Positions 5,881-23,409 of a stretch of DNA of 25,580 nucleotides are shown piece by piece (position 1 is the first letter of the stretch; every line of letters begins with the position of its first letter). The stretch covers positions 1 to 25,580 of IMG/VR virus record IMGVR_UViG_3300033148_002824, one strand, 5' to 3'. Position numbers and translations under genes: made by a program. Under the pieces are notes generated by a model that saw only the letters and a list, made by a program, of their open reading frames with translations, was not told where the DNA came from and searched no databases. The DNA comes from a virus.

Positions 5881-5937
5881 GGTGATAATTAAGTGGATTC
5901 ACCAACCACATAATAGGGTGCATAATAGAATTCACCC
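5881..5937 (+). promoter_or_regulatory. Structured 5' leader element, copy A (before scaffold)
   Basis: Stem 1: GGTGA (5881-5885) with TCACC (5899-5903). Conserved loop TAATTAAG (5886-5893). Stem 2: GTGG (5893-5896) with CCAC (5906-5909). Stem 3: GGGTG (5916-5920) with CACCC (5933-5937), whose loop contains AGAATT. The start codon follows 10 bases later. Copy B at 9812-9863 keeps all the stems with different bases and the same loop sequences. Stems 1 and 2 interleave, so they are either a tight pseudoknot or two alternative states. Confidence 0.75.
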
Positions 5938-5947
5938 AACTATAAAT

Positions 5948-6679
5948 ATGGATGAAGTAAATTTGGCGGATATTCCCAATGAAGGGGATGTCATAGAGGA
6001 GAAGGAAACTTCTATAGAATCGCCAGCTGAAAAAAAACCAGAGGAGAAACCAGAGGAAAAAAAAGAAAAGGAAGAAAAAAAAGAAGCAAAAGAAGTAAAA
6101 GAAGAAGTTCCTTTTCATAAACATCCTCGCTTCAAGGCACTTGTAGAGGAAAAAAATCAATACAAGAAAGATCTTGATGATATGAAGGAATATATGAAAT
6201 CTGAAATTAGCGAAATAAAGGAATCGCAATCCAAGGATACTAAAATTCCTAAGTGGTTCTCAGAAGCTTTAGGAGATAATAAGGAAGCATGGAATAGTTT
6301 TCAGGAAATGAATAAAGAATCACAAGAATCAATTAAAAAAGAAATCAGAGAGGATCTAAAGAAAGAACAAGGTAAGAGTGATGACTCAGCAGATAAATGG
6401 AAGAAGTGGGTGGATAATCAAATTGATTCTTTACAAGCTGATGGTTTAGAGTTTAAAAAAGAAGATCTCATGAAAGTAATGATGGAATATAAACCTACTG
6501 ATGGAAAGGGAAATCTTGATTTTAAAAAAGGTTATAATATCTTGAAACTCTCAACCAAAAAAGATTCTAAGAAAATAAACGAACGAAAGAAAATTGTTAG
6601 TGAGAGCAAGAAGACAGATAAAGAGCCACAAACTAAGAAATGGTTTACTCCTGCTGATATGGTAGGCAAGGGATGGTAA
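5948..6679 (+). CDS. Capsid scaffolding protein
   Basis: 243 residues from ATG 5948. An upstream in-frame GTG at 5882 would translate through the structured leader, so I reject it. The N-terminus is very acidic and then a Lys/Glu/Pro run (about 28-52) leads to VPFHKHPRFKALVEEK (54-69), a motif seen in scaffold proteins of related phages, followed by long coiled-coil helices. The end is TPADMVGKGW. Composition (highly charged, helical, no aromatic core) and position between portal and capsid fit a scaffold that guides procapsid assembly and is then expelled. No protease motif is visible. Confidence 0.75.
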   Translation: MDEVNLADIPNEGDVIEEKETSIESPAEKKPEEKPEEKKEKEEKKEAKEVKEEVPFHKHPRFKALVEEKNQYKKDLDDMKEYMKSEISEIKESQSKDTKIPKWFSEALGDNKEAWNSFQEMNKESQESIKKEIREDLKKEQGKSDDSADKWKKWVDNQIDSLQADGLEFKKEDLMKVMMEYKPTDGKGNLDFKKGYNILKLSTKKDSKKINERKKIVSESKKTDKEPQTKKWFTPADMVGKGW

Positions 6680-6699
6680 TAATTAATTAATAAAAAAAT

Positions 6700-7734
6700 A
6701 TGGCAAATAGCAACCGAGTTACATCCGTGACTCAGGATGTTCTTCTTCCAAAATTGTTAGATACTATTTTGAGAGAAAACGTTCTTTGGACACGCCTTAT
6801 GGGAGGTTCTGCAAAACCTTTTAAAGGAGAGACAATGAAAAAGTCTATAAAAGTTTCAAAAAATACCACTGGTGGGCATTTTAGAGGATATGATTTATTG
6901 GATACTACTGCTACTGATAATAGAATTCAATTATCTTTTACTCCGGAATTTTATTACAAATCAGTTTCAGTACCAGTAACTGATTTATCTTTGAATGCTT
7001 CTAGTGAAGGAAAAGTAATTGACTTAATGTCAGCTGAAATGGAAGGTACTGCTCATGATATGGCTGATGACTTAGGTGATAAACTATATACAGATGATGC
7101 AACTGCAGCAGATGATAGTTCAGGAAGTCTATTTAATGGATTAGCAAATATCATTGATGATGGTGGAACTGCTGCAACTTATGGTGGACAGACAAGATCA
7201 ACTTACACTACGCTTAATGCTACTGATACTGCTTCTGGGGGTACTTTAACATTAGCTAAAATCTCAACATTATTAAGTGCTATCGGAGATGGATCACAAG
7301 GTGCGAGCATTTTAATATCTGACCGAACTGTATGGAATTTACTTGAACAGTTGATTGAGCCTAAAGTTAACATTACCCGAAATATTGATACATATAAGAA
7401 GGGTGTTAAGGGTGGAGCTGGTCTTACGGCTATTGACTATAGAGGAATCCCTGTAGTAGCAGATAGAAAAGCTACTTCTGGATATCTATATGCGATTGAT
7501 GAAGATTACATTGATTGGTTTGCACTTCCTGTTTATGGGGAGAATGCATTTAAGTTTAAAACTGTAACTGAGGGTAATGACTATGGTCAATCTCAGGGTA
7601 TGGGATTCAGTTGGGATGGTTGGAAGAAACCGGTTAATCAGAAGGCTTATGTAACTCAACTTACTTTAGCTGGAAACTGGATCTGTTGGGATCCTGGAAA
7701 ACATGGTCGTTTAACTGGTATTACGGGAGTTTAA
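6700..7734 (+). CDS. Major capsid protein, HK97-like fold
   Basis: 344 residues. The N-terminal VTQDVLLPKLLDTILRENVL is the N-arm and first helix. FKGETMKKSIKVSK and LSFTPEFYYKSVSVPVTD form the E-loop and P-domain strands. Residues around EGTAHDMADDLGDKLYTDD form the spine helix typical of this fold, and ILISDRTVWNLLEQL with YRGIPVVADRK forms the A-domain. The C-terminus QLTLAGNWICWDPGKHGRLTG is as in podovirus-like coats. There is no long N-terminal delta domain, consistent with the separate scaffold upstream. It has an A/T-only leader with no Shine-Dalgarno site, although this should be the most abundant virion protein. Confidence 0.85.
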   Translation: MANSNRVTSVTQDVLLPKLLDTILRENVLWTRLMGGSAKPFKGETMKKSIKVSKNTTGGHFRGYDLLDTTATDNRIQLSFTPEFYYKSVSVPVTDLSLNASSEGKVIDLMSAEMEGTAHDMADDLGDKLYTDDATAADDSSGSLFNGLANIIDDGGTAATYGGQTRSTYTTLNATDTASGGTLTLAKISTLLSAIGDGSQGASILISDRTVWNLLEQLIEPKVNITRNIDTYKKGVKGGAGLTAIDYRGIPVVADRKATSGYLYAIDEDYIDWFALPVYGENAFKFKTVTEGNDYGQSQGMGFSWDGWKKPVNQKAYVTQLTLAGNWICWDPGKHGRLTGITGV

Positions 7735-7747
7735 TTAATTTAACATA

Positions 7748-7792
7748 TTTCGCTATTTACCTTGAGTTTAAAGACTACAAGAGATAGAGGAA
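7748..7792 (+). promoter_or_regulatory. Long imperfect hairpin in the leader of the gene at 7806
   Basis: TTTC-G-CTAT (7748-7756) pairs with ATAG-A-GGAA (7784-7792) with one mismatch. Above an internal loop, CTTGAGT (7761-7767) pairs with ACT-A-CAAG (7774-7781). It has no T-run, so it is not a terminator. It lies between the capsid stop and the next start, where a transcript-processing or stability element would sit. Confidence 0.5.
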
Positions 7793-7805
7793 TAAAAAGA
7801 AAAAT

Positions 7806-8786
7806 ATGTTATTACGAGATTATAATCCGGCATTGCGATATGGAGCGCAGATTCTTCCATCAGAAATAGTAGGTGGAGGAATGACTGTGTTCGGTAATGC
7901 TTGGTATGTAGATCCTACTAATGGAGACGATAATGATACTGGAGAAACTCCAGATCATGCATTTGCTTCAATTAGTGCTGCTATTTCGGCTGCTACGACA
8001 AATAACCATGATGTTATTTTTCTAAGCGCTCATGCAGCTCATGCACAAACCTCAATGCTGACAATTACAAAGAGTAGGCTTCATTTTGTGGGAACTGATA
8101 TGAGAGGCGGAGTAGGTATGGGTGCTAGAAGTAGAATTACTATGGGAGACAGTACAGTAGCTGCTGATATTGCTTTGATGCAAAACACAGGAGTAGGAAA
8201 TACTTTTACTAGTATCAAGTTTGATAGTTCAAGTACTGTAGCTGCTTCAATTTGGGGTGTTACAGAAGGTGGAGAATACACAGTTTATAGAAGCTGTGAA
8301 TTTTATAAGTCATCTGACTTAGATGTAACACTTTCAGCTGAACTCTTAGAGAATGGTGATTCTTGCCAATACATAGATTGTAGCTTTGGATCACTTGCTA
8401 ATGAAGTATCAACTGCAATCATTCATCCGTGTGTAGAATTTGCAAGAGAAAAAATCACTGGTAAGTTTTCAAGAGATGCAAGATTTGATAATTGCCAATT
8501 CTTAAGAAAAGCAGGAGGAACAGCTAATTCATTTGTAGATGCAACTGGAGTAAATGATGTAAATAGAATGGCAATGTTTAAGAATTGTGACTTTATTGCT
8601 AATGAAATAGGTTCAGTACCTGCAGAAGCTGTTACAGCTAGTGGTGGAAAGCAAGAACGAGGAGCAATTCTATTGAATAACTGCTGGGCATTTAACTGTA
8701 CTCTATTAACTGAGGCTTCAGTTGGAGTATTTGTTGCTAATGCGACTGCTGTTCATAATACTTCTGGAATAGCTAAAGATGGTTAA
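7806..8786 (+). CDS. Beta-helix-like structural protein (probable head or spike accessory)
   Basis: 326 residues. YVDPTNGDDNDTGETPDHAF (34-53) is the calcium-site-like opening common to parallel beta-helix (pectate-lyase type) proteins. A following FASISAAISAA helix and DVIFLSAHAAH resemble the first coil of such folds. Repeating short strands with CEF, CSF, CQF and CDF turns (SCEFYKS, DCSFGSL, NCQFLRK, NCDFIAN) spaced by roughly 35 residues mark successive coils. It lies directly after the capsid gene, where minor head or decoration proteins are encoded. No catalytic residues are identified. It may be a surface spike rather than an enzyme. Confidence 0.65.
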   Translation: MLLRDYNPALRYGAQILPSEIVGGGMTVFGNAWYVDPTNGDDNDTGETPDHAFASISAAISAATTNNHDVIFLSAHAAHAQTSMLTITKSRLHFVGTDMRGGVGMGARSRITMGDSTVAADIALMQNTGVGNTFTSIKFDSSSTVAASIWGVTEGGEYTVYRSCEFYKSSDLDVTLSAELLENGDSCQYIDCSFGSLANEVSTAIIHPCVEFAREKITGKFSRDARFDNCQFLRKAGGTANSFVDATGVNDVNRMAMFKNCDFIANEIGSVPAEAVTASGGKQERGAILLNNCWAFNCTLLTEASVGVFVANATAVHNTSGIAKDG

Positions 8787-8803
8787 AAATTAAATAAATA
8801 ATT

Positions 8804-8959
8804 ATGGCTAAGAAAAAAGTAATCAAGAAAGCTATTAAAAAAGGATCATTTATAACTGACATTAAGCGAGAATATTTTATGGAAGATGGAATTGAAAAAG
8901 TAAAATGTACTCATATGAGTGGTTCTAAAGTAGTAAAAGTAGAAATTGAAAATTCATAG
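8804..8959 (+). CDS. Small basic hypothetical protein
   Basis: 51 residues (begins MAKKKVIKKAIKKGSF, ends VVKVEIENS). A lysine-rich N-terminus is followed by a short beta-rich part with CTHMSGSKVVKVEIE. The ATG has the typical late-gene leader (TAAATAAATAATT). The length is a whole number of codons and it fits exactly between its neighbours. Function is unknown; basic tails of this kind can bind nucleic acid or the capsid interior. Confidence 0.6.
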   Translation: MAKKKVIKKAIKKGSFITDIKREYFMEDGIEKVKCTHMSGSKVVKVEIENS

Positions 8960-8979
8960 GTTTAATTCAAGTTGACCTT

Positions 8980-9021
8980 AAGATTAGCGCCTTTTAAGGA
9001 AGTCTAATCTTTAAAAGATTA
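8980..9021 (+). promoter_or_regulatory. Leader with mutually exclusive hairpins before the gene at 9041
   Basis: AAGATTAG (8980-8987), CTAATCTT (9004-9011) and AAGATTA (9015-9021) form a three-part set. The middle arm can pair with the first (8 bp, with an inner CCT-TTTA-AGG stem) or with the third (7 bp, 3-base loop). This is the arithmetic of an RNA switch or attenuator. There is no T-run, so any control would be translational or through stability. Confidence 0.5.
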
Positions 9022-9040
9022 ATTAACTAATAAAAAAAAT

Positions 9041-9766
9041 ATGGCACGATTTACACAAGATGCTGCTACAGCTCCTAGGAATATACGGAGTAACTCATCT
9101 GTTCAGGAAGCTGCTTTGGGAACAAAGATTATTACTCCTGATGGACGAGCTTATCGTTATATTCAAGCTGGCGGCACAGCATTAGTACCTGGAAAATTAC
9201 AAGATGGACCAGCTAATGCAACTAACCACGCTAACATAGCGGTGGTTTCCGGAGCTGCTGGCGCTTTAGAAATAGTAGTTACATTAGGCGCTACTGCAGC
9301 TACTGCTAATCAGTATGCTGGAGGTGTTATTGTTATTAATGATGAAGATGGGCAGGGATATACTTATTCAATTAAATCTCATCCTGCTGCTGCTCTATCA
9401 ACTAACTTAACAGTTACCTTAGATGATGACGAACCAGTAGTAACTGCTTTGACGACCAGTTCACAAGCAACGCTAGTAGCTAATCAGTATAAAGATGTTA
9501 TTATTCATGCTGCATCTGAGACTGGCGTTCCTGTTGGAGTAGCTGTAACAGCTATTACAGCTGAGTATTTTGGATGGATCCAAACAAGAGGTCCTGTTTC
9601 TTGCTTACATGATGCAACACCTGCTGAAATCGGAGAAGGCGTTAGCGCTTCTACAACTACGGATGGTTGTGTAACAGAGCAAGTAACGCCTCTTAGTGAA
9701 GTTGGAGTAGCGTGTGTTCAGGGAGTTTCCACGGAATATAATCCTGTATTCTTAGTTATGGATTGA
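9041..9766 (+). CDS. Capsid decoration-like protein
   Basis: 241 residues, Ala/Thr/Val-rich and all-beta in pattern. GRAYRYIQAGGTALVPGKLQ, DGQGYTYSIKSHPA and EYFGWIQTRGPVS, then a C-terminal STEYNPVFLVMD, follow the layout of a family found beside capsid genes in many tailed phages. A role as a head-stabilising decoration or minor head protein is inferred from that position. It is preceded by the mutually exclusive hairpins and an A/T-only leader. Confidence 0.6.
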   Translation: MARFTQDAATAPRNIRSNSSVQEAALGTKIITPDGRAYRYIQAGGTALVPGKLQDGPANATNHANIAVVSGAAGALEIVVTLGATAATANQYAGGVIVINDEDGQGYTYSIKSHPAAALSTNLTVTLDDDEPVVTALTTSSQATLVANQYKDVIIHAASETGVPVGVAVTAITAEYFGWIQTRGPVSCLHDATPAEIGEGVSASTTTDGCVTEQVTPLSEVGVACVQGVSTEYNPVFLVMD

Positions 9767-9783
9767 TTTTAGATAAGGTTTAA

Positions 9784-9807
9784 GGGGCTTCCTTTTTAAA
9801 AAGCCCC
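9784..9807 (+). promoter_or_regulatory. GC-rich stem-loop downstream of the gene ending at 9766
   Basis: GGGGCTT (9784-9790) pairs perfectly with AAGCCCC (9801-9807) around a 10-base A/T loop. No T-run follows on either strand, so it is a weak terminator at best. It ends four bases before leader copy B and may protect or punctuate the message. Confidence 0.6.
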
Positions 9808-9811
9808 GTTA

Positions 9812-9863
9812 GGCGATAATTAAGCTGTTCGCCACAGCGTAATTGGGGTCAGAATTATCCCAA
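9812..9863 (+). promoter_or_regulatory. Structured 5' leader element, copy B
   Basis: Stem 1: GGCGA (9812-9816) with TCGCC (9829-9833). Loop TAATTAAG is identical to copy A. Stem 2: GCTGT (9824-9828) with ACAGC (9834-9838). Stem 3: TTGGGGT (9843-9849) with ATCCCAA (9857-9863), loop CAGAATT sharing AGAATT with copy A. The start codon follows 7 bases later. Compared with copy A, a T-to-C change in stem 1 is matched by A-to-G on the other arm, and stems 2 and 3 differ on both arms while remaining paired. Confidence 0.78.
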
Positions 9864-9870
9864 CAAACAA

Positions 9871-10230
9871 ATGAAAAACAATAAAAAATCAGTTGCAATA
9901 CTATTTTGTAATTGGACAGACCAAGATTTTACTCATAAGTGGGACAATGTAGAATATTCTTTTAAGTCAGGACAATCAGAATTAATTCAAGATTTTTTAG
10001 CACATCATTTCGCTAAACATCTTGCACAAAGAGAAATAAACAGAAAGAAACTCTTAATGACAGATCCTAAGTTTAAAGTATTCTATGATAAGTGTTTCTC
10101 TAAGGGAGTAGTAGAAGCTGATACAGACCTGAAGCTAGAAATAGAAATGGAGAAGAAAAAAATAAAAAAAGTAAACAAAAAGATTAAAAAAATAAAAGAA
10201 AAAGAATTTGAAGGATTAAATGAAAAGTGA
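9871..10230 (+). CDS. Conserved-looking phage protein of unknown function
   Basis: 119 residues. The first 75 are globular: AILFCNWTDQDFTHKWDN, then YSFKSGQSELIQDFLAHHFAKHL, a pattern I associate with a small structural-region phage protein with no assigned role. The C-terminal 40 residues are a lysine-rich, probably helical tail. It has the second copy of the structured leader directly upstream, which suggests it shares post-transcriptional control with the scaffold gene. Its stop overlaps the next start (TGATG). Confidence 0.6.
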   Translation: MKNNKKSVAILFCNWTDQDFTHKWDNVEYSFKSGQSELIQDFLAHHFAKHLAQREINRKKLLMTDPKFKVFYDKCFSKGVVEADTDLKLEIEMEKKKIKKVNKKIKKIKEKEFEGLNEK

Positions 10231-18049: not shown

Positions 18050-18835
18050 ATGGCAACAATATCAAAAATAGATACTTCTCAACTTGAAGCGTTAAGAAGT
18101 AAATACGCGGGTTATCTTTCTCCAACGGAGGAAGAAACAGGGACTCAAACTCAGCTTAAAAATTTAATCGCGTCAAAAGAGCTGGGTATAGCCAAAGCAG
18201 AAGCAGAGCCTATGGCACAAAAATTTGTCACAGGACAATCAACTGCTTTAGAAAAATCAGCAGCGCTTAAGAGTCTTCCTCTTCAAACAAGACTGGAAAA
18301 TTTACAATCCCAGCGAACTGCAGCAGCTGATGTTTTAAAGTCTCAATTAGGATTTGAAGAATCTAATATTCAGAGACAAACAGAAGATAGAAACTTACAA
18401 CTTGGTCTTGATGTAGCTGAAGAAGAAAGAGGGTACGCCGAAGAAGAAAGAGAAGAAAATTGGAAGCAGCAATTAAAGAGTTTAGCGATGTCATTAGGAG
18501 TAAGTACTAAGACTAAAAAAGGTGGAACATTAAGTGCTAAAAATTTAGAAAAAGCAATTGCTAAATCTAATAAGGGAGCATTAGAAGAAACTAGAAAATC
18601 AACTGACTTAGATTATCAATTAAGATTAAAAGAGTTAAATAAACCAACTACGACTAGTACTGGAACATGGTCAACTATGAATATAGGAGGAAAGATTTAT
18701 AAAATTAATTCTAAGACTGGTGAAATACAAGAAACAGGAGTTCAAGAAACTGGGGAAATGACACAAAGAATGCAACAACTAAGAGACGCGGGGTGGACTG
18801 AGGAAGAAATTAAATCATTTATGTTAATGCAATAA
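18050..18835 (+). CDS. Helical virion-associated protein
   Basis: 261 residues, mostly helical. Charged Ala/Glu/Gln-rich segments (roughly 25-200, with ESNIQRQTEDRNLQLGLDVA and a stretch dominated by Glu) are followed by a short beta segment (STMNIGGKIYKINSKTGEI) and a C-terminal helix RMQQLRDAGWTEEEIKSF. This small internal-virion-like protein sits immediately before the giant gene, an arrangement seen for ejection proteins of podoviruses. Its stop overlaps the next start as TAATG, so the two are likely made together. Function is inferred from position. Confidence 0.5.
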   Translation: MATISKIDTSQLEALRSKYAGYLSPTEEETGTQTQLKNLIASKELGIAKAEAEPMAQKFVTGQSTALEKSAALKSLPLQTRLENLQSQRTAAADVLKSQLGFEESNIQRQTEDRNLQLGLDVAEEERGYAEEEREENWKQQLKSLAMSLGVSTKTKKGGTLSAKNLEKAIAKSNKGALEETRKSTDLDYQLRLKELNKPTTTSTGTWSTMNIGGKIYKINSKTGEIQETGVQETGEMTQRMQQLRDAGWTEEEIKSFMLMQ

Positions 18836-21800
18836 TGTCAATCTTTAATCAATTACAAGAATTAAGATCTCGTATAGGAGGAGGAGTATCCTCTTTTATT
18901 CAAGGTTCCCAAGAAGATGATTCTTGGATAGGGAGAGCTAAAAGATTTACTCAAAAAGGTCCTACTGATTATATCTCGGATTACTTTAAACCAACCTCAA
19001 AAATAAGAGCCAGGGATGTTATTAGAGGATTACCTCAAGCACAAGCAGACATAGTTAAAAATTTAGCGCTAGAATTACCTACTAGAGCTACTATGAAATT
19101 CCAAATGGAATTAAAAAGATTACAAGGAAAGAAAGAAATATTTACTCCAGAAACTAAGCTTGAAAAGTTTATTCTTGGCAGGGAGCCTGTCACTTCTTTT
19201 TCTAGAACTGGAGAAAAATTTGAAAAAACAAAAATAGGTCAATATATAAAAAAGAAAACTGGAATTGGAAAATTTGGTATGGCAATAACATCAATAGGAA
19301 TGACAGGATTAGATGTTCTTCCTTGGGGAGGAGCTTCCGCTAAAGTTGTTAAAAATATTTCTAAGTTAAGAAAATTTAATGATACTGTTAAGGCTCTTGG
19401 AAAGCATGCTAAAAAATATTCAGGCGAAGCGATAGAGGCAATGACAAAAGCAGACACAGTAGAGGATGTTTATAAAGTTATGAAACAAGAAAGTATTTTA
19501 AGTAAAGAATTAGGTACTATTGCAAAAGATTTTAAAAAGAAAATTACTACACCGAAAGCGAAAATTCATATAGACGACCAAAAGGTGATGTCTAATTTTA
19601 CAGATTATATAGCAGGAAGCTATAAGCCGGCTAAAAAAGATGCGTTACAATTAACAGAGGATGCATTAAGACTCACTCAGCATTATAAAATAAAGATGCC
19701 AGGAACATTACGAGGATTATCCCATGAATTTGGAAGAGTGTTAGAGAAGCAAAAATTTGCTACTAAGCCGACTAAGATAGGAGAATTAAAAAAGATATCA
19801 GAGCCTCTTTACCATGGAGCGGATAAAAAAGTTACTAAGGAGTTAAAAACATTTGAAAATATTCTCTCTTTTGAAAAAGATCAAAGAGCGGCGATTAATC
19901 AACTTGCGAAGGAAGGAGATATTGGGGCACAAAAAATTATACAAAGAGGTAGTCAATTTACAGAAATAGATGCATATATGAAAAGTAAGTTTAGCCCTGA
20001 GTATGACGCAATTAAATATCAGAATAAGCAATTACCTCAGAAGGGGATAGAATATCATGATCTAAAAAAGGGTAAATTTTATTCAGAAAAAAAAGAAATA
20101 GCTGAATTATATGCGAAACAAAGCAGGGATTTAAAATATAAAGATGAGATAAAACTCCCTACAAAAGAAATAACCCTCAAAGATATAGCTGAATCAGATG
20201 AAATTACAATTGCCGCTAGGGATGTTAAAAAAGGAAAGAAATCTCTTAGTGAGTTACCACTATTAGTTAAAAAGCAAGCTAATGGTAAATATTTTATTAA
20301 AGATGGAAAACACAGACTTGTAGAACAATATCAAAAAGGAATTAGAAAATTTAAGGTTACAGAAGATGAAAAGTTATATCGTAAAGCTGCAGGAGTAGAA
20401 GAAAAGGGATTAAAAAAGGTTAAAGTAAAAAAACACATAAGAGGAGAAGGAAAGGTAAAGGAATATACTAGAGTATCAAAAGCTAAACCAACTGAAGCCC
20501 TTGCAGGAGTAGCAACTGGCGCTGAAGTAGATGAAGAGGGTAAATTTGGAATTGATCCTAAAATGGCTGCGCTGGGAGTACTTGGAATGAAGGCAGCCAA
20601 AAGTAAAAGCATTCTTCAAATAGCACGCGAGAAAAAATTAACCGAAGCTAAGCAAGTAGATAGATTGGCAAACATTACTCCTACTGATTATCTAAAAACT
20701 AAAAAACTTATAAAGGGTACTTGGGCAACCGGAATTAGAGAATGGGGGCAAGATAAAATGATACGAGTTAAAAAATTAATTGAAAGTCCTGAAATAAAAA
20801 TATCTGATAAAACTGATCCTTATCTTGCAGAGACGCTATTCCATGGTAGAGTCGCTTCCCGTTTAGAGAATATAAAAAGTACTATTAAAGATATTGATGT
20901 AGATATAGTTAAAACAGCTAAGTCTTTAGGGGTTAAGGCTGATAAAATATCAGAAAACATTAATAGATACTTAGTAGCACGCCATGCTCCTGAAAGGAAT
21001 TTAAAGCTAGGAGAAAAAGCAGCTGGCATTACAACTAATCAAGCAAAAGAGGTAATGAGAGTAATTGAGAGTTCGGCTGAAGGAAAAGAAATAAAACGAA
21101 TCGCTGAGAGTATTAGTAATCTAAATAAGCAAACTCTAGAAATACTTTACGAAGGAGAAGTTATTAGTAAAGAATTATATGATCTTCTCGGGAAAACCTA
21201 TAAACATCACGTTCCACTCAATAGAATTCTTGACGAAACTGAAGATATAGCCAAATGGTTAACTGGAGGAAAAGGGTTTAGTACTAAAGGCTCTGGATTA
21301 TTAAGAGCTAAAGGGAGTCAATTAAAAGTAGCAGATATAATAGAAAATATAACAGCTAATGTAGAGCAGGCAGTGGTAAGAGCAGAAAAAAATAGAGTTG
21401 GATTATCAGTTTTACAATTTGCTAGAGATAATAAGATGGTTGGTGGATTATTTAAAGAAATAAAAGCTACTCCAATCGGAAGAACATTTAGCGGTGAGAT
21501 TATAACTAAGAAAGTTACTGATCCGTTAGTTTTAGCTATGAGAGAAAAGGGAAATCCAATAAATCTTAAAATAAATGACGAAGTTTTAGCAGGAGCATTA
21601 CAAGGAGTAAATGTTGAACATGTCCCAAATAAATTTAGATGGATAAATAGTATTACGAGATTTTATTCAAGTCTAGCAACAAGATATAATCCAGAATTTG
21701 CCTTTAGTAACATTATTAGAGACTTACAAGAAAATATGGTTTATATGGCGGCACAGAAAAAAATAGGATTTTCTGGCGCAGCAAAAACTCCTATTAAGCT

Positions 21801-23409
21801 AGCTACTAGTGCTAAAGATGTATTCAATGCTATAAGAGGAAAAAATACAGAAGGCGCAAAGCTTTACAGGCAAATGGTAGAAGATGGAGGAACTACTGGA
21901 GGCATGGCTCTATCTACTAGAAAACAAATTCAAATAGATTTAGATAAGATAAGAAAAATAAATAGATCAAACCCAAAAAAAGCAACAGAACAATTTCTAC
22001 AAAGTATAGATAACTGGAATCAAATATTTGAAGACTCTAACCGACTATCTTCTTATAAGGTAGCCTTAGAAAAAGGCTTTAGTAGAATGAGAGCAGCTCA
22101 AATTTCTAAAGAATCAACCGTTAACTTTAATCGCAAAGGAACAGCGGGACCAATAATAAATGCGCTCTATATGTTTTCTAACGCATCTATTCAAGGCTCA
22201 GCTAAAATGCTAATGGCAATGAAGGATCCTAAAGTAGCTACTGCAGTTATTACTTCGGTTACGGTCCCTGTTGTAGCTGTCAATCAATGGAATGATTCTA
22301 TTGATCCTGATTGGAGAGATAAGGTAAGTGATTGGGATAGAATATCAAACTTACCTATTTTAATTCCACAAGAAGAGGGGGTTAAATATGCAACAATTCC
22401 AGTGTCTTGGGGATTAAAACCTATAATGGCAATGGTAAATGTAGCTTATGATACATCAGTAGATAAGGCTAAAGGAGTTAAAGATAGTGCAGAAAAACTA
22501 ATTACTTCTATAACAGAAGCCTATAATCCTTTAGGGGGAACGGATTTATTTTCAGCTTTTATGCCTACATTAGGAGATATACCAGCTGACATATCAAGAA
22601 ATAAAGCATGGTATGGAGCACCAATTAAACCAGATTATAATGAAGAACTCCCTGAATCAGAGAAATTCTTTAAATCTATTGAAAAAACAGGTACTGGTAG
22701 AATAGCTAAAAAAATTACTGATAAATTATCTACGACAACTAATAGAGTTATAGAAATTAGCCCTGAAAATATAGATTATGGTTTTAATCAAATAGTTAGT
22801 GGTGCTGGTAAGTTCGTAAATAAAACTATTAATCTTGTTTCATCTATCGGTAAGGAAGATAAACCTCGTCCCCAAGAGCTTCCAATAATAAGTAGGTTTT
22901 TGAAGCAGCGCTCTGAAGAAGAGGTCGGTAGCGCAGCGAAATATAAAAAACAAGACGAGTTCTTTGAACAATTAAGAAAAATGGAAACTGGAGGTGAAGA
23001 ACAGAAACAAGCTATTCAGGAATATATTAATTCTTTTGAACCAGAAGATAGGTCTACTCAGCTATATATTATCAGAGAGTCTGGCTTTCCTACTAAGGGA
23101 GTTTCTAGTTCTGAGAATGTTGTTAGGGCACGTGAAATTGTAAAATTATCTCCAGAGGAAAGAAGTAAAGGATTACTAGAGGAATTAAAAAAAGATCCTA
23201 AATTTAAAACACAATACAAAAAAGCTCTTTCTGAAAAAGATTTAAGTCAAGAAGAAATAGATTTAAAAAATAGCTCTATATCAAATAGAATTAAATTTAT
23301 AAAGACTGAGATGGAAAAAATGACAGATGATGAGAAGGAAAAATATAAACTAGATTTAGTAAAGAAAAAAATAATAACTAAAAGTGTTTTAATAGGGTTA
23401 ATAGAATAA
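18835..23409 (+). CDS. Giant internal virion protein with polyvalent (LPD38-like) region
   Basis: 1524 residues. The N-terminus has a short hydrophobic patch (GKFGMAITSIGMTGLDVLPW) and helices. Around residue 325, PLYHGADKK with KFYSEKKEIAELYAKQ near 413 resembles the first two motifs of ADP-ribosyltransferase domains; the final catalytic Glu is not evident. At about 470-505, LPLLVKKQANGKYFIKDGKH followed by RL matches the ParB/sulfiredoxin-type nuclease motif. From about 630 to 1180, blocks including IREWGQDK, FAFSNIIRDLQENMVYM, EDSNRLSSYKVALEKGFSRM and NFNRKGTAGPIINALYMFSN match large-polyvalent-protein domain 38 (LPD38), found in phage proteins carried in the virion and probably ejected with DNA. 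The C-terminus is helical. All domain calls are by eye. Confidence 0.7.
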   Translation: MSIFNQLQELRSRIGGGVSSFIQGSQEDDSWIGRAKRFTQKGPTDYISDYFKPTSKIRARDVIRGLPQAQADIVKNLALELPTRATMKFQMELKRLQGKKEIFTPETKLEKFILGREPVTSFSRTGEKFEKTKIGQYIKKKTGIGKFGMAITSIGMTGLDVLPWGGASAKVVKNISKLRKFNDTVKALGKHAKKYSGEAIEAMTKADTVEDVYKVMKQESILSKELGTIAKDFKKKITTPKAKIHIDDQKVMSNFTDYIAGSYKPAKKDALQLTEDALRLTQHYKIKMPGTLRGLSHEFGRVLEKQKFATKPTKIGELKKISEPLYHGADKKVTKELKTFENILSFEKDQRAAINQLAKEGDIGAQKIIQRGSQFTEIDAYMKSKFSPEYDAIKYQNKQLPQKGIEYHDLKKGKFYSEKKEIAELYAKQSRDLKYKDEIKLPTKEITLKDIAESDEITIAARDVKKGKKSLSELPLLVKKQANGKYFIKDGKHRLVEQYQKGIRKFKVTEDEKLYRKAAGVEEKGLKKVKVKKHIRGEGKVKEYTRVSKAKPTEALAGVATGAEVDEEGKFGIDPKMAALGVLGMKAAKSKSILQIAREKKLTEAKQVDRLANITPTDYLKTKKLIKGTWATGIREWGQDKMIRVKKLIESPEIKISDKTDPYLAETLFHGRVASRLENIKSTIKDIDVDIVKTAKSLGVKADKISENINRYLVARHAPERNLKLGEKAAGITTNQAKEVMRVIESSAEGKEIKRIAESISNLNKQTLEILYEGEVISKELYDLLGKTYKHHVPLNRILDETEDIAKWLTGGKGFSTKGSGLLRAKGSQLKVADIIENITANVEQAVVRAEKNRVGLSVLQFARDNKMVGGLFKEIKATPIGRTFSGEIITKKVTDPLVLAMREKGNPINLKINDEVLAGALQGVNVEHVPNKFRWINSITRFYSSLATRYNPEFAFSNIIRDLQENMVYMAAQKKIGFSGAAKTPIKLATSAKDVFNAIRGKNTEGAKLYRQMVEDGGTTGGMALSTRKQIQIDLDKIRKINRSNPKKATEQFLQSIDNWNQIFEDSNRLSSYKVALEKGFSRMRAAQISKESTVNFNRKGTAGPIINALYMFSNASIQGSAKMLMAMKDPKVATAVITSVTVPVVAVNQWNDSIDPDWRDKVSDWDRISNLPILIPQEEGVKYATIPVSWGLKPIMAMVNVAYDTSVDKAKGVKDSAEKLITSITEAYNPLGGTDLFSAFMPTLGDIPADISRNKAWYGAPIKPDYNEELPESEKFFKSIEKTGTGRIAKKITDKLSTTTNRVIEISPENIDYGFNQIVSGAGKFVNKTINLVSSIGKEDKPRPQELPIISRFLKQRSEEEVGSAAKYKKQDEFFEQLRKMETGGEEQKQAIQEYINSFEPEDRSTQLYIIRESGFPTKGVSSSENVVRAREIVKLSPEERSKGLLEELKKDPKFKTQYKKALSEKDLSQEEIDLKNSSISNRIKFIKTEMEKMTDDEKEKYKLDLVKKKIITKSVLIGLIE

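Follow-up and report, generated by a model that had tools for sequence, protein, structure and literature searches.

The 25.6-kb IMG/VR virus record IMGVR_UViG_3300033148_002824 (the window, analysed over its whole length of 25,580 nucleotides) carries genes for terminase, portal, scaffold and capsid in that order, followed by further late genes. Two of its genes, the scaffold gene (the A gene) and a gene located further downstream (the B gene), are preceded by related 5' leaders, here called leader A and leader B. The capsid gene lies directly downstream of the scaffold gene. Both leaders have the arm order of an H-type pseudoknot, a topology that recurs before the same two genes in distantly related phages, and we lean towards regarding them as translational operators.

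Structure of the two leaders

In both leaders the arms follow the order 5' arm of stem 1 (S1), loop 1 (L1), 5' arm of stem 2 (S2), loop 2 (L2), 3' arm of S1, loop 3 (L3) and 3' arm of S2 (Table 1). An earlier, sequence-only reading had pictured three hairpins in a row. All of the sequence elements that it listed in the two leaders are found where it placed them. The arrangement is a different one: the 5' arm of S2 is inside the loop of S1 and its 3' arm is beyond S1, so that stems 1 and 2 are interleaved, and leader A is probably a tandem of two pseudoknots. The hairpin that completes leader B has a weak pseudoknot partner (AAT/ATT in the relatives L005 and L006) or none.

The sequence GATAATTAAG is present exactly twice in the window. 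Ordinary minimum free energy folding, a method that is blind to pseudoknots, gives z-scores of -1.5 and -2.1. Because these are unremarkable, the two copies alone are no proof of a fold, and the proof comes from comparative evidence.

Table 1. Coordinates in the window of the leader elements and of the genes discussed in the text (nt, nucleotides; aa, amino acids)
Feature	Position	Strand	Details
Leader A pseudoknot 1	5881..5909	+	S1 GGTGA 5881-5885/TCACC 5899-5903; S2 GTGG 5893-5896/CCAC 5906-5909; L1 TAATTAA, L2 AT, L3 AA; reads GGTGA TAATTAA GTGG AT TCACC AA CCAC
Leader A probable pseudoknot 2 (formerly stem 3)	5916..5943	+	S1 GGGTG 5916-5920/CACCC 5933-5937; S2 ATAG 5925-5928/CTAT 5940-5943; reads GGGTG CATA ATAG AATT CACCC AA CTAT; ends 4 nt upstream of the ATG
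Leader B pseudoknot	9812..9838	+	S1 GGCGA 9812-9816/TCGCC 9829-9833; L1 TAATTAA; S2 GCTGT 9824-9828/ACAGC 9834-9838; reads GGCGA TAATTAA GCTGT TCGCC ACAGC
Leader B hairpin 3	9843..9863	+	TTGGG 9843-9847/CCCAA 9859-9863; conserved loop TCAGAATTA; ends 7 nt before the ATG
Scaffold gene (A gene)	5948..6679	+	243 aa, charged and helical; between the portal and major capsid genes; ATG at 5948
Major capsid protein gene	6700..7734	+	phrog_9953 major head protein, 2.9e-40; without a pseudoknot leader
B gene	9871..10230	+	119 aa; conserved N-terminal beta-plus-helix domain; second gene under a leader; ATG at 9871

Covariation in the window clade

A search with the capsid protein identified four IMG/VR relatives, and L150 was added from a DNA pattern scan. 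Where the capsid protein is 66-87% identical, relatives retain the element at both genes, and in the contigs of this window clade this form of the element is confined to A or B sites. Leader B is found before the same gene in all close relatives, where S2 has changed on both sides (GCTGT/ACAGC, GCAGT/ACTGC, GCGG/CCGC and GCGAT/ATCGT). Before the scaffold gene, leader A occurs in L004 (ACGA/TCGT), in L005 (GCGG/CCGC) and in L006, where its form is diverged (GTAG/CTAC).

The 13 leader copies (A and B) of the window clade were aligned, scored against the pseudoknot structure and compared with 500 shuffles. Paired cells make up 94.9% of the alignment as opposed to 80.6% in the shuffles, two-sided changes occur in 7 of the 9 pairs and in both interleaved helices, and the covariation score is 0.538 (0.229 when shuffled). 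None of the 500 shuffles matches the observed values. If the 3' partners are shifted by 1-3 columns, pairing falls to 20-61%. The shuffle test ignores relatedness and the A and B copies share genomes, so this result is strong yet uncorrected for phylogeny. The fold is established by this covariation.

Two relatives with a 66% identical capsid, L166 and L167, have two tandem pseudoknots before the scaffold gene, and for this reason the stem 3 of window leader A is read as pseudoknot 2. Its S2 has counterparts at the same position in L005 (GAG/CTC), L006 (GTAG/CTAC), L166 (TAGG/CCTA) and L167 (GTAG/CTAC). The statistical support is modest (n=6, with p about 0.01-0.02 for S1 and likewise for S2), and in sequence comparison this segment is probably a second pseudoknot.

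Several features adjoin the leaders. A GC-rich hairpin (GGGGCTT...AAGCCCC) at 9783-9807 in the window, directly 5' of leader B, is also present in L006 and L150, and may separate the upstream transcript from leader B. A tRNA gene takes its place in L005 and L166. In L004 (8884-9183) and also in L003, a homing-endonuclease-like open reading frame (ORF), with a helix-turn-helix and NUMOD-like repeats recognised by eye, is located directly 5' of leader B and has its TAA stop inside the leader B pseudoknot. A further possible pseudoknot-like element, GGACTCG TAAGCAGAA AGTG CGAGTCC A CATT, is found at L164:7558, L165:3714, in L166 before the gene at 7628, and at L167:7589. It precedes a homologue of the window gene at 9041 and was not seen in other clades.

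A second form in more distant phages

A search based on a capsid alignment extended the comparison to 78 loci. Phages with an about 32-36% identical capsid have, at the same two genes, an element that looks different and is topologically equal. Before the scaffold gene it has the form AGGY-(5-9 nt)-S2-RCCU-GAA-S2' and ends 8-16 nt before the ATG. Before the B gene, a compact version is found in 12 loci, AGGY-(3 nt)-S2-RCCU-GAA(nn)-S2'. S2 pairs in all 12 of these AGGY...RCCTGAA cores, and nearly every arm is different. Over all loci there are 34 copies of the AGGY form with 21 different S2 arms; here the number of arms, and not the pairing, is the evidence because the descriptor demands pairing. 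When the S2' arms are permuted between sequences, pairing falls from 1.00 to 0.54 in the B leaders and to 0.69 in the A leaders (p<=5e-5). Many A leaders of the AGGY form have a further pseudoknot upstream, for example GTCC GTTTCTA GGGT AGT GGAC CTTAAATAAG ACCC in L190. Two other loci, L239 and L240, are on a 71-kb contig in a Prevotella metagenome-assembled genome (MAG), on which a related capsid gene occurs twice at a spacing of 40 kb; this contig looks like one phage genome assembled twice in tandem.

Further homologues thus exist and their stems are kept. The sequence-only reading had proposed that both arms change together in a selected fold, and the covariation in the 13 window-clade copies and the S2 permutation in the distant clade bear this out. 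Judged from these comparisons, the element is almost certainly a selected RNA fold. The same reading also took the single-stranded parts to be fixed. The TAATTAAG loop, outwardly the conserved core, is a trait of the window clade; across the wider group, conservation extends to the pseudoknot topology, to the site immediately upstream of the start codon and to the two genes concerned.

Each clade's A and B leaders have a core in common that is specific to that clade: the window clade has a TAAYNAA loop, L175-L193 have AGGY..RCCUGAA, and L169-L172 have GTCTTTTnCTGAG...CCTGCTAACAA. The two leaders have diverged in parallel between clades. Two RNA sites that are alike within a clade and drift between clades suggest one recogniser that diverges along with its two targets. 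Gene conversion between the A and B leaders would yield a similar pattern of likeness.

Placement and specificity of the element

The 896,520 bases of related loci contain 32 forward matches to the AGGY form, 31 of them 7-16 nt upstream of an A or B gene. One match is on the reverse strand, and reversed sequence has none. The earlier suggestion that two genes far apart are under the same control agrees with this placement. Eight virus records of 35-42 kb were scanned in full with the pattern AGGYN{7,13}RCCTGAA, which has no S2 requirement. Five (G007, G010, G011, G012, G015) have exactly two sites, at A and B. G018 has the B site alone, and G019, with an A core of AGGG, escapes the pattern. 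A third match in G008 is no leader: it reads AGGC..ACCT, lies within the scaffold gene and has incomplete S1 pairing. The strand and position of the element and its restriction to two genes are established.

A generic pseudoknot descriptor matches before 72% of A genes (shuffles, 11%) and 59% of B genes (shuffles, 16%), whereas the figure for 394 other genes is 13%; the shuffles for this descriptor span 9-17%, the gene set has some near-duplicates, and the start coordinates of L188 and L238 are a few bases late. An IMG/VR pattern scan made without a protein query returned 13 contigs, with a scaffold-like gene at all 12 sites that have a readable start codon. Other patterns were uninformative. 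The loose pattern GATAATTAAG..AGAATT has at least 120 matches in IMG/VR, almost all due to chance, and among the 120 matches listed for AGGTCTTNNNNYACCTGAAA are two true leaders, both known already. L163 fits a stricter pattern, yet the match is inside an unrelated coding frame. A role in stop-codon readthrough was rejected: the portal stop abuts pseudoknot 1 in L164-L167, leader B is without such a stop, and L005 and L006 have other intervening sequence.

Translation signals and hosts

Shine-Dalgarno (SD) sites precede 4% and 1% of the genes in the pseudoknot clades (controls 3% and 6%). In relatives without the pseudoknot the proportion is 46% (control 5%). The other genes of pseudoknot genomes start from plain A-rich leaders. 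The L238 contig is binned in a MAG with 150 type IX secretion tails and a full-length SusC/RagA protein; this MAG is Bacteroidota. A more distant relative is in a Prevotella MAG. These hints at hosts come from the bins of relatives; the binning of phage contigs can err, and some relatives are assigned to TM7. No other carrier was found among 58 relatives of the L238 MAG.

The two proteins and other genes

The scaffold gene is identified by its position and by weak PHROG head-scaffolding matches in two homologue scans. Its protein has a helical AlphaFold model with a disordered N-terminus (mean predicted local distance difference test score, pLDDT, 71.8). The B protein belongs to a family with 34 members identified through a hidden Markov model, and is modelled by AlphaFold as a small domain with a core pLDDT of about 90. 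Comparison of this fold gave no match in the PDB or among viral models.

Other genes differ between the window and its relatives or lack an assigned role. A 1524-aa protein encoded at 18835-23409 has an LPD38 polyvalent-protein domain and matches very large PHROG families of unknown function. The terminase large subunit has 542 aa in the window and 862 aa in L004 (218-2806), where there is an apparent intein insertion. A gene for a GroEL-like chaperonin lies between terminase and portal in L005 (1356-2870) and L006 (1306-2877); none was seen there in the window.

Alternative explanations

In an alternative that we consider unlikely, the leader is a two-state switch in which either the S1 or the S2 hairpin exists at a given time, but never the two together. 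The window-clade copies have an L3 of 0-2 nt to span an S1 of 4-5 bp, which is tight for a classical coaxial H-type pseudoknot, so both helices could coexist there only with S1 frayed or with a geometry out of the ordinary. On its own, the S2 hairpin is stable in places (-4.4 kcal/mol in copy B, for example). However, the loops of the distant clade (L1 of 3 nt, L3 GAA) suit a compact H-type knot, and the same interleaved layout recurs in several forms that are unlike in sequence. Rough energies, calculated as simple stacking sums with a knot penalty of 9.6 kcal/mol, also put the combined fold ahead of each single hairpin in most copies (-11.7 versus -7.7 in window B), a few (such as L190 A and L182 B) being exceptions. 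Alternation between two folds, which the sequence-only reading had named, is possible for the window's own copies.

Slightly less likely still is an SD-independent translation enhancer, in which the knot would recruit or position the 30S subunit in hosts that ignore SD sites. The pseudoknot clades are without SD sites, and one member is in a MAG with clear Bacteroidota markers. One study reports that ribosomes of this group fail to recognise the SD, with Bacteroidia ribosomes failing to use SD pairing (PMC9976891). However, the other genes in these genomes begin from plain A-rich leaders, and the element is at just two genes per genome with none at the capsid gene, a pattern that speaks for a regulator rather than a general enhancer.

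A riboswitch function is known for many small H-type pseudoknots, and the knot could be a metabolite riboswitch or a sensor of a host ribosomal protein that reads a host signal and not a phage protein. This we consider quite improbable: the single strands that would form the ligand pocket are entirely different from clade to clade, although the topology and the target genes are kept, no Rfam riboswitch matches even at an expect value (E) of 10, and the targets are phage virion or late genes only. An element for messenger processing or stability, such as an RNase site or a decay barrier that adjusts how much scaffold is made relative to other late proteins, has a similarly small chance of being correct. 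The upstream RNA could be cut at the GC-rich hairpin (window, L006, L150) or tRNA (L005, L166) directly before leader B, but a fixed distance of 7-16 nt from the start codon fits initiation control and not a decay barrier. A DNA-level site (a protein-binding repeat or a homing-endonuclease target) or a chance duplication has in its favour that the endonuclease-like ORF of L003 and L004 runs into leader B. It is scarcely credible given the interleaved compensatory changes, the bias to one strand (32 matches forward, 1 reverse, and 0 in reversed DNA), the placement at start codons and the presence of the element across deeply diverged phages.

Relation to known systems

Rfam 15 returned tRNAs and chance matches only, both for the window and eight relatives at the gathering score and for the leader regions at E 10. 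The STAXI covariance model (RF01728) had no match in those scans, nor had preQ1, SAM-II, fluoride and other pseudoknotted riboswitch families up to E 10. As far as Rfam goes, the view that no named RNA family has this shape is supported. No paper on pseudoknots before scaffold genes was found in a literature search whose coverage largely excludes subscription journals.

The closest working analogue is the T4 gene 32 operator and the closest tandem-pseudoknot motif is STAXI; neither matches by its defining features. The gene 32 messenger RNA (mRNA) operator of T4, T2 and RB69 is a pseudoknot bound by the gene's own product, with autogenous translational repression as the result (PMC535899, PMC3014915). 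The likeness is that an H-type pseudoknot, here indicated by its interleaved covarying helices, is in the 5' leader of a phage gene, that autogenous repression occurs in T4 and is proposed here, that the operator sequence diverges while the structure is kept, and that a reading frame overlaps the element (segG at the T4 knot, the homing-endonuclease-like ORF at leader B in L004). However, the T4 operator serves one gene for a single-stranded-DNA-binding protein, whereas here the scaffold and B genes are concerned. The T4 knot is 67 nt upstream, with an AU-rich (UUAAA-repeat) unstructured spreading region and an SD site, whereas here the knots are often in tandem, most end 1-16 nt from the ATG or have a further hairpin filling the gap, and there is no SD site. 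There is no sequence likeness.

The STAXI motif is found in Enterobacteriales, where its 2-3 repeats lie close to DNA-handling genes and often have UUCG loops (PMC2864571). It resembles the present element in its tandem repeated pseudoknots, which were likewise proposed from comparative genomics. The E. coli rpsO (S15) translational operator contains a pseudoknot for autogenous control, as mentioned in PMC3014915. It differs in that its target is a ribosomal protein in a host that uses SD sites.

Proposed mechanism

The nearness of the element to the start codon indicates initiation control, and control of translation in cis is probable. We give a little better than an even chance to the two leaders being translational operators, with a factor bound to the fold repressing the scaffold and B genes. 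Each mRNA leader would fold into an H-type pseudoknot, and leader A into two in tandem. In most forms the knot would end about 1-16 nt from the start codon, in or against the area that the 30S subunit must occupy, in a setting of phage genes without SD sites. The fold would be recognised by a single factor acting in trans; this is probably a phage product, the simplest choice being the scaffold protein. As the free factor accumulates, it would stabilise the knot and block initiation on the scaffold and B genes, and the neighbouring capsid gene, which has no element, would stay on.

We infer action on translation and repression as its effect. That one factor is common to both leaders is rather likely; its identification with the scaffold protein is tentative and more doubtful than the rest. 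In phage P22, free scaffold protein reportedly lowers its own synthesis post-transcriptionally while coat protein synthesis continues, and the scaffold protein is the simplest candidate for this reason. Such logic fits an operator on the scaffold gene only, and we know of no RNA operator defined in P22. Repression by the scaffold protein, as the sequence-only reading had offered, is a good hypothesis in which that protein would bind the leader.

Besides the tight L3 of the window clade, several observations weigh against the operator model. L003 and L004 have a single pseudoknot before the scaffold gene and leader B of L006 retains just 3 S2 pairs, and some parts of the element are therefore dispensable. 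Some B leaders of the wider group (L177, L186, L203, L209) are without a clear pseudoknot. No RNA-binding domain was recognised in the scaffold and B proteins by profile and structure comparisons, and the model offers no reason for the B gene to share the operator. The B protein, modelled as a small, well-defined domain without a structural match, may also be the regulator.

The most specific form of the operator model, to which we give somewhat less than an even chance, is an assembly regulon in RNA. The scaffold or B protein would bind clade-specific pseudoknots before exactly two genes in hosts that ignore SD sites. Feedback on translation would then govern how much scaffold is made relative to coat, and the recogniser would diverge together with both of its targets. 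If true, capsid assembly in these phages would have a pseudoknot operator. The knots before scaffold genes form a family with dozens of natural variants, in phages that lack SD-based control. Each clade offers its own pair of putative operators, and the binding protein could thus be found by testing proteins against operators of their own and of other clades. The finding hints at how viruses of Bacteroidota-like hosts may control translation initiation.

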